From: a virus
IMG/VR virus record: IMGVR_UViG_3300021963_000234
Coordinates: 1 to 43,817 of that record
Strand: one strand, 5' to 3'
DNA: 43,817 nucleotides
The position numbers and the translations under genes are program-made. Under the pieces are notes generated by a model. It was given only the letters and a program-made list of their open reading frames with translations, ran no database searches and had not been told where the DNA came from. Of the stretch, positions 14,469 to 14,540 are shown piece by piece (position 1 is the stretch's first letter; the number at the start of each line of letters is the position of its first letter).

Positions 14469-14540
14469 GGCGTCCCCGGCGCTGCGCTCAATCCCGAGCG
14501 CAACCGGGCTGACGAGCCGGTGAAAGCCCGGCGAAACGCC
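14469..14540 (+). ncRNA. Type III hammerhead self-cleaving ribozyme
   Basis: All conserved parts of the hammerhead core are present in order. Stem III 5' strand is GGCGT and the cleavage triplet GTC ends at 14474. Stem I is CCCGG (14475-14479) with CCGGG (14504-14508), carrying an internal loop and an upper GCGCTC/GAGCGC stem. The core CTGACGA is at 14509-14515. Stem II is GCCGG/CCGGC with a TGAAAGC loop. GAAA follows at 14533-14536, and stem III closes with ACGCC to 14540. Cleavage is expected between 14474 and 14475. The 3' edge touches the ATG at 14541, so it probably processes the promoter-3 transcript between two genes. Hammerheads are known in phages; activity here is untested. Confidence 0.88.

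Follow-up and report, generated by a model that had tools for sequence, protein, structure and literature searches.

A type III hammerhead ribozyme motif adjoining a probable start codon in a viral genome

The locus and its elements

The window, which is the whole 43,817-nucleotide stretch of viral DNA analyzed here (IMG/VR record IMGVR_UViG_3300021963_000234), carries at 14469-14540 of its plus strand a complete type III hammerhead core with three perfect stems, and an ATG follows at 14541. The element lies between two small genes, designated A and B, and a third gene, C, follows gene B (Table 1). The hammerhead consensus of CUGANGA, GAAA and a cleavage triplet of the form NUH is represented by CUGACGA, GAAA and GUC, respectively. 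The open end is at stem III and the elements run in the order III-I-II, as is characteristic of type III. The stems comprise five, five and four perfect pairs together with a U-A pair and six further base pairs in stem I.

Table 1. Coordinates of the features at the hammerhead locus
Feature	Position	Strand	Basis and remarks
Sigma-70-like promoter TTGACG-17-CATATT, overlapping palindrome TGTAGGCT...AGCCTACA	14087-14115	+	Consensus scan; 87-nt repeat
Gene A, 75 aa	14162-14389	+	ORF; GGAG upstream; coding score 0.44
Stem III, 5' strand GGCGU	14469-14473	+	Partner is ACGCC 14536-14540
C17, predicted cleavage on 3' side	14474	+	GUC triplet 14472-14474; established hammerhead rule
Stem I, entire	14475-14508	+	Sequence, fold
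Core CUGACGA, G8 at 14514	14509-14515	+	Identical core in 45-sequence alignment
Stem II, GCCGG 14516-14520 / CCGGC 14528-14532	14516-14532	+	7-nt loop UGAAAGC, GNRA-containing (U-GAAA-GC)
Core GAAA 14533-14536 and stem III 3' strand (A)CGCC	14533-14540	+	Directly adjoins ATG 14541-14543
Gene B, 85 aa, orphan	14541-14798	+	ORF; ATG adjoins stem III; no Shine-Dalgarno; coding score 0.16
Gene C, 110 aa	14875-15207	+	ORF; no Shine-Dalgarno

Stem I is unusually long, at 34 nt compared with a median of 19 nt among phage type III hammerheads. It consists of a 5-bp inner helix (CCCGG 14475-14479 with CCGGG 14504-14508), an internal loop (CGCU 14480-14483 and AA 14502-14503) and a 6-bp outer helix (GCGCUC 14484-14489 with GAGCGC 14496-14501) closed by the loop AAUCCC. 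Loop II fits the pattern Y-GNRA-NY, which is typical of the other phage hammerheads whose stem II has 5 bp and whose loop has 7 nt, most of which show it, and the AA preceding the 5-bp stem I strand is shared with several other phage hammerheads. Both features bear on a possible tertiary contact between loops I and II.

A preliminary description of this DNA had reported a complete type III hammerhead core and stems, with an internal loop in stem I, ending on the base before the ATG. All of these elements are present at exactly the positions given, including G8 and A15.1 (14536). The four bases before the ATG, CGCC, are paired with the 5' strand in stem III as described, and the predicted cut between 14474 and 14475 would create a new 5' end with a 66-nt leader. 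The observation is confirmed, and the element is a credible self-cutting RNA.

The preliminary description had also noted that the gene B ATG lacks a Shine-Dalgarno sequence, and the calculated score of -3.7 kcal/mol, which corresponds to none, agrees; the stem II strand CCGGC supplies none either. Gene A has a Shine-Dalgarno sequence, as do several further genes of the phage, and gene C has none. The ATG at 14541 is likely the true start of gene B. The gene B frame is, however, open for 192 nt upstream of this ATG, past 14400, and includes four GTG codons, with the best upstream Shine-Dalgarno score (-6.8 kcal/mol) at GTG 14406. The coding score of 14400-14540 in this frame is borderline (0.138, where the 95th percentile of wrong frames is 0.146) and inside the true-gene range. 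Because this interval is open and borderline coding, the ribozyme could lie within a longer gene B.

The promoter-like site upstream of gene A has a near-copy at 15227-15255. The two sites belong to an 87-nt repeat (14063-14149 and 15203-15289, 82% identical). In each copy the promoter-like site is enclosed in a palindrome, and ahead of genes A and D the repeat also includes a hairpin leader of 29 nt (CACCAAGGGCGACGACAACAACGCCCTGG) that is identical in the two copies. The repeat has the appearance of a single regulated promoter present twice. An imperfect 21-nt inverted repeat (81%; 14442-14462 and 14805-14825) flanks the ribozyme and gene B and may be due to chance in GC-rich DNA. Beyond it, after gene B, there is a hairpin, GCCAGGG-TGCAACT-CCCTGGC. 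The search for an intrinsic terminator on the plus strand found none.

Protein searches found no relatives of gene B, and exact-sequence and protein searches with the locus, an HNH-like neighbour and the leader repeat returned no matches, so that no close relative of the hammerhead locus was found by these two kinds of search. Relatives of the terminase are mostly loci in alphaproteobacterial genomes, along with two partial phage contigs, and the DNA read around them contained no hammerhead. When 385 genomes were scanned with a loose pattern, 10 matches resulted, none of which appears hammerhead-like by eye from the matched letters.

Chance matches, covariance and predicted folding

A pattern scanner requiring the core and three stems was applied to both strands of the window, and 14469-14540 was its sole match. 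First-order simulations gave no matches in 200, whereas second-order simulations gave two matches with stems of at least 5/5/4 bp in 6,127 simulated windows, a count that ignores the outer 6 bp of stem I. When 4.5 Mb of real sequence was scanned, the reversed copies yielded 1 match and the forward direction 405, of which only the reversed count is informative because the forward loci were mostly fetched for having hammerheads.

A covariance search with the Rfam type III model had been proposed as a check. RF00008 resembles the window site in its type III order, and the core and stem II align. Stem I of the model is short, which causes the match to misplace stem I of the window site, and the score of 17.5 bits is below the gathering score of 48.5. 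Used at gathering scores, Rfam likewise failed to detect the hammerheads of five comparison contigs (six loci: L134, L064, L133, L148, L161 and L365). The sub-threshold score therefore reflects the Rfam model itself, and its insensitivity led to the building of a phage-specific one. Surveys relying on the Rfam hammerhead models at gathering scores will undercount, as these miss typical phage type III hammerheads.

The phage-specific model rests on 45 further type III hammerheads from phages, with the window site held out. The core positions in this alignment are invariant except for the N position, and all three stems covary strongly, with 205 cells showing two-sided changes compared with 59 in shuffles. 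The window site is the top match in the window at 23.4 bits (E=4.5e-5), where E-values of this model are rough because a second match without the core also scored. That match, at 13141-13185 (18.7 bits) in the end of gene 11978-13162, has only stems III and I, lacks CUGANGA and stem II, and was judged to be due to chance. Two weak matches in bacterial genomes (25-26 bits) failed the core-and-stem scan, and a 25-bit score therefore means little in a megabase genome.

Folding predictions are less favorable. CCGG occurs in four strands of the hammerhead and mispairing is possible; the three-stem fold is predicted at -33.3 kcal/mol versus -36.5 kcal/mol for a CCGG-mispaired fold, so that the hammerhead falls short of the minimum by 3.2 kcal/mol. 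It accounts for ~4% of the secondary-structure ensemble, a value at the 12th percentile when compared with 89 phage type III hammerheads. The active fold would gain from tertiary contacts, which are absent from secondary-structure predictions.

Hammerheads ahead of phage genes

The presence of a hammerhead ahead of a phage gene is already known and common. Of 197 phage hammerheads, 147 are followed on their own strand, after 0-45 nt, by the ATG of an ORF of 50 codons or more; the corresponding figures are 8 for the antisense strand and 21% for random positions. Hammerhead and ATG are usually separated by 8-30 nt, in many cases including a ribosome-binding site. The window site fits this intercistronic pattern, being on the sense strand, between genes and 0 nt from ATG 14541, the likely start of gene B. 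Hammerheads are very numerous in phage contigs, several of which contain more than one (L056, L103, L134 and L104). Arrays of 4-6 type I hammerheads, mostly each ahead of its own small gene, occur in L056, L103, L104 and L042.

The window hammerhead is itself of a known kind, and few phage hammerheads have a gap of zero, although such cases recur. The contact with the ATG, which had been presented as the distinguishing feature of this site, is thus real and rare; it is not unique to this phage, as a gap of zero also occurs in L134, L064, L133 and L148. These four resemble the window site in being type III with the 3' strand of stem III running directly into the ATG. They differ in having a short stem I and a stem II 3' strand that resembles a Shine-Dalgarno sequence (AGGA, AAGG or AGGG, ~8-10 nt before the ATG, which is the Shine-Dalgarno position). 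Stem II of the form GYCC/GGRC is very frequent in phage hammerheads, so this likeness may be a by-product.

The clearest case is the contig of L134 (9731-9783, 11225-11277 and 11696-11748) and L365, which contains four type III hammerheads. Two of these span exactly from TGA to ATG, one ends 2 nt from an ATG and one lies 14 nt away with AAGGAG. L365, the fourth hammerhead of the contig, has a normal Shine-Dalgarno sequence outside the ribozyme. One of the two genes at these exact junctions encodes 230 aa, matches a known phage family and lacks any alternative start codon among its first 40 codons. The start of the L064 zero-gap gene agrees to within one codon with its homologue in the cultured Xanthomonas phage DoCa5. 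The start evidence for L134 and L064 indicates that some phages do have a true zero gap. No hammerhead was found near homologues of zero-gap genes in cultured phages within the flanks that were read.

With one stem III type, 4 of 43 hammerheads touch the ATG, in three contigs, and L064 adds two more. The GGTC stem pattern was picked after zero-gap cases with that stem had been seen, and a complete GGTC scan added no further zero-gap contig. A Poisson value of 1e-4 consequently overstates the enrichment, for which no firm figure can be claimed.

Possible roles of cleavage

Two functions had been proposed for the ribozyme, namely mRNA separation and control of translation, within an operon. The promoter-like site at 14087 makes a small operon plausible. 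mRNA separation is better supported by the placement of hammerheads on the sense strand ahead of starts and by published cleavage, and the ribozyme probably splits an operon transcript between genes A and B, giving the downstream mRNA a 66-nt structured leader. This reading is favored because a promoter-like site lies upstream, the ribozyme is on the sense strand and the product carries gene B. RNA from a promoter near 14087 would run through gene A, the ribozyme and gene B, and the ribozyme would cut after C14474. The upstream fragment, ending in a 2',3'-cyclic phosphate, would then serve as the gene A mRNA, and the downstream fragment would be the mRNA of gene B (and C), beginning with a 5'-hydroxyl and having stems I and II as its leader. 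The most likely job of cleavage would be to separate the mRNAs and set their ends, and so their stability, with the freeing of the CGCC beside the AUG as a possible additional effect. Against this reading stand the favored CCGG misfold, the open frame upstream of gene B and the failure of the searches to find a close relative of the locus.

Several known systems bear on this assignment. Prophage hammerheads that flank single genes in A. caulinodans, A. tumefaciens and C. scindens (Perreault et al., 2011; PMC3088659) have the same core and also lie between genes of a phage transcript. Their suggested role is to process long phage RNA to mRNAs of gene length, and several cleave in vitro, the A. 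tumefaciens set also in E. coli (PMC3088659). The window hammerhead differs from them in its single copy, its long stem I with an internal loop and its zero gap to the ATG. In the haloviruses HF1/HF2, a hammerhead (HHphage) likewise lies just before a start codon, and a transcript 5' end was mapped within 3 nt of the cut; it is located 13 nt upstream and has a variant core, whereas the window site has a gap of 0 nt and the consensus core (PMC3088659). The same survey assayed 18 consensus hammerheads in vitro and saw no cleavage for four of them (PMC3088659).

Control of translation is an unlikely main function. It would require stem III to hide the bases beside the AUG and cleavage to drop the stem III 5' strand, freeing GAAACGCC-AUG and turning gene B on. 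The zero gap in the window and in a few other phages, one of them with two exact TGA-hammerhead-ATG junctions, is consistent with such gating, as are the AGGA, AAGG and AGGG strands that the other cases place at Shine-Dalgarno distance. Opening around the AUG is predicted to increase from the precursor to the 3' product in 11 of 11 modelled cases. Engineered hammerheads that sequester a Shine-Dalgarno sequence control bacterial translation (PMC5052635), and in these, as would be true of the window site, cleavage uncovers the initiation region; they are designed and ligand-controlled, whereas the window hammerhead is natural and has no visible ligand domain. The predicted change in the window is nevertheless small, with the mean unpaired probability around the AUG rising from 0.28 in the folded precursor to 0.41 after cleavage, and the product can re-pair. 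Its stem II strand provides no Shine-Dalgarno sequence, its start is uncertain and gene C also lacks a Shine-Dalgarno sequence. In nearly all phage hammerheads, including L365, the ribosome-binding site is outside the ribozyme, and a constitutive, fast ribozyme gates nothing unless it is regulated.

It is improbable that gene B instead begins upstream, at GTG 14400 or 14406 (~10-16 nt past gene A), and that the hammerhead-like stretch is coding sequence and either a chance match or inactive. The open frame with its GTG codons, the Shine-Dalgarno score at 14406, the borderline coding score and the favored misfold all fit this possibility. The scarcity of such matches in the second-order simulations, counted before the outer part of stem I and the loop features are considered, argues against it, as do the held-out model match and the loop II and AA features.

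A role confined to forming the gene A mRNA 3' end or to releasing a small RNA, with gene B incidental, is very improbable: cleavage would give gene A a defined 3' end after the GC-rich, hairpin-forming 14412-14468 where the plus strand yielded no intrinsic terminator, but hammerhead position is tied to the downstream start across phages.

A broader proposal is doubtful: that in a minority of phages a type III hammerhead forms the whole intercistronic element, from a stop codon (at or near it) to the next start, such that cleavage would both separate the mRNAs and uncover the start, with the stem II 3' strand serving in some cases as the Shine-Dalgarno sequence. The 2011 survey left the role of phage hammerheads open (PMC3088659), and that role becomes testable in an arrangement that leaves no space for a distinct ribosome-binding site. 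Better test cases than the window exist, above all L134, with its two stop-ribozyme-start junctions and a fourth ribozyme with a normal Shine-Dalgarno sequence.

A second ribozyme class was encountered in one of the zero-gap contigs. L133 contains a Pistol ribozyme at 8758-8824 (40.4 bits, above the Rfam cut-off) directly ahead of AAGGAG and an ATG, so that this contig combines two ribozyme classes in similar placement.
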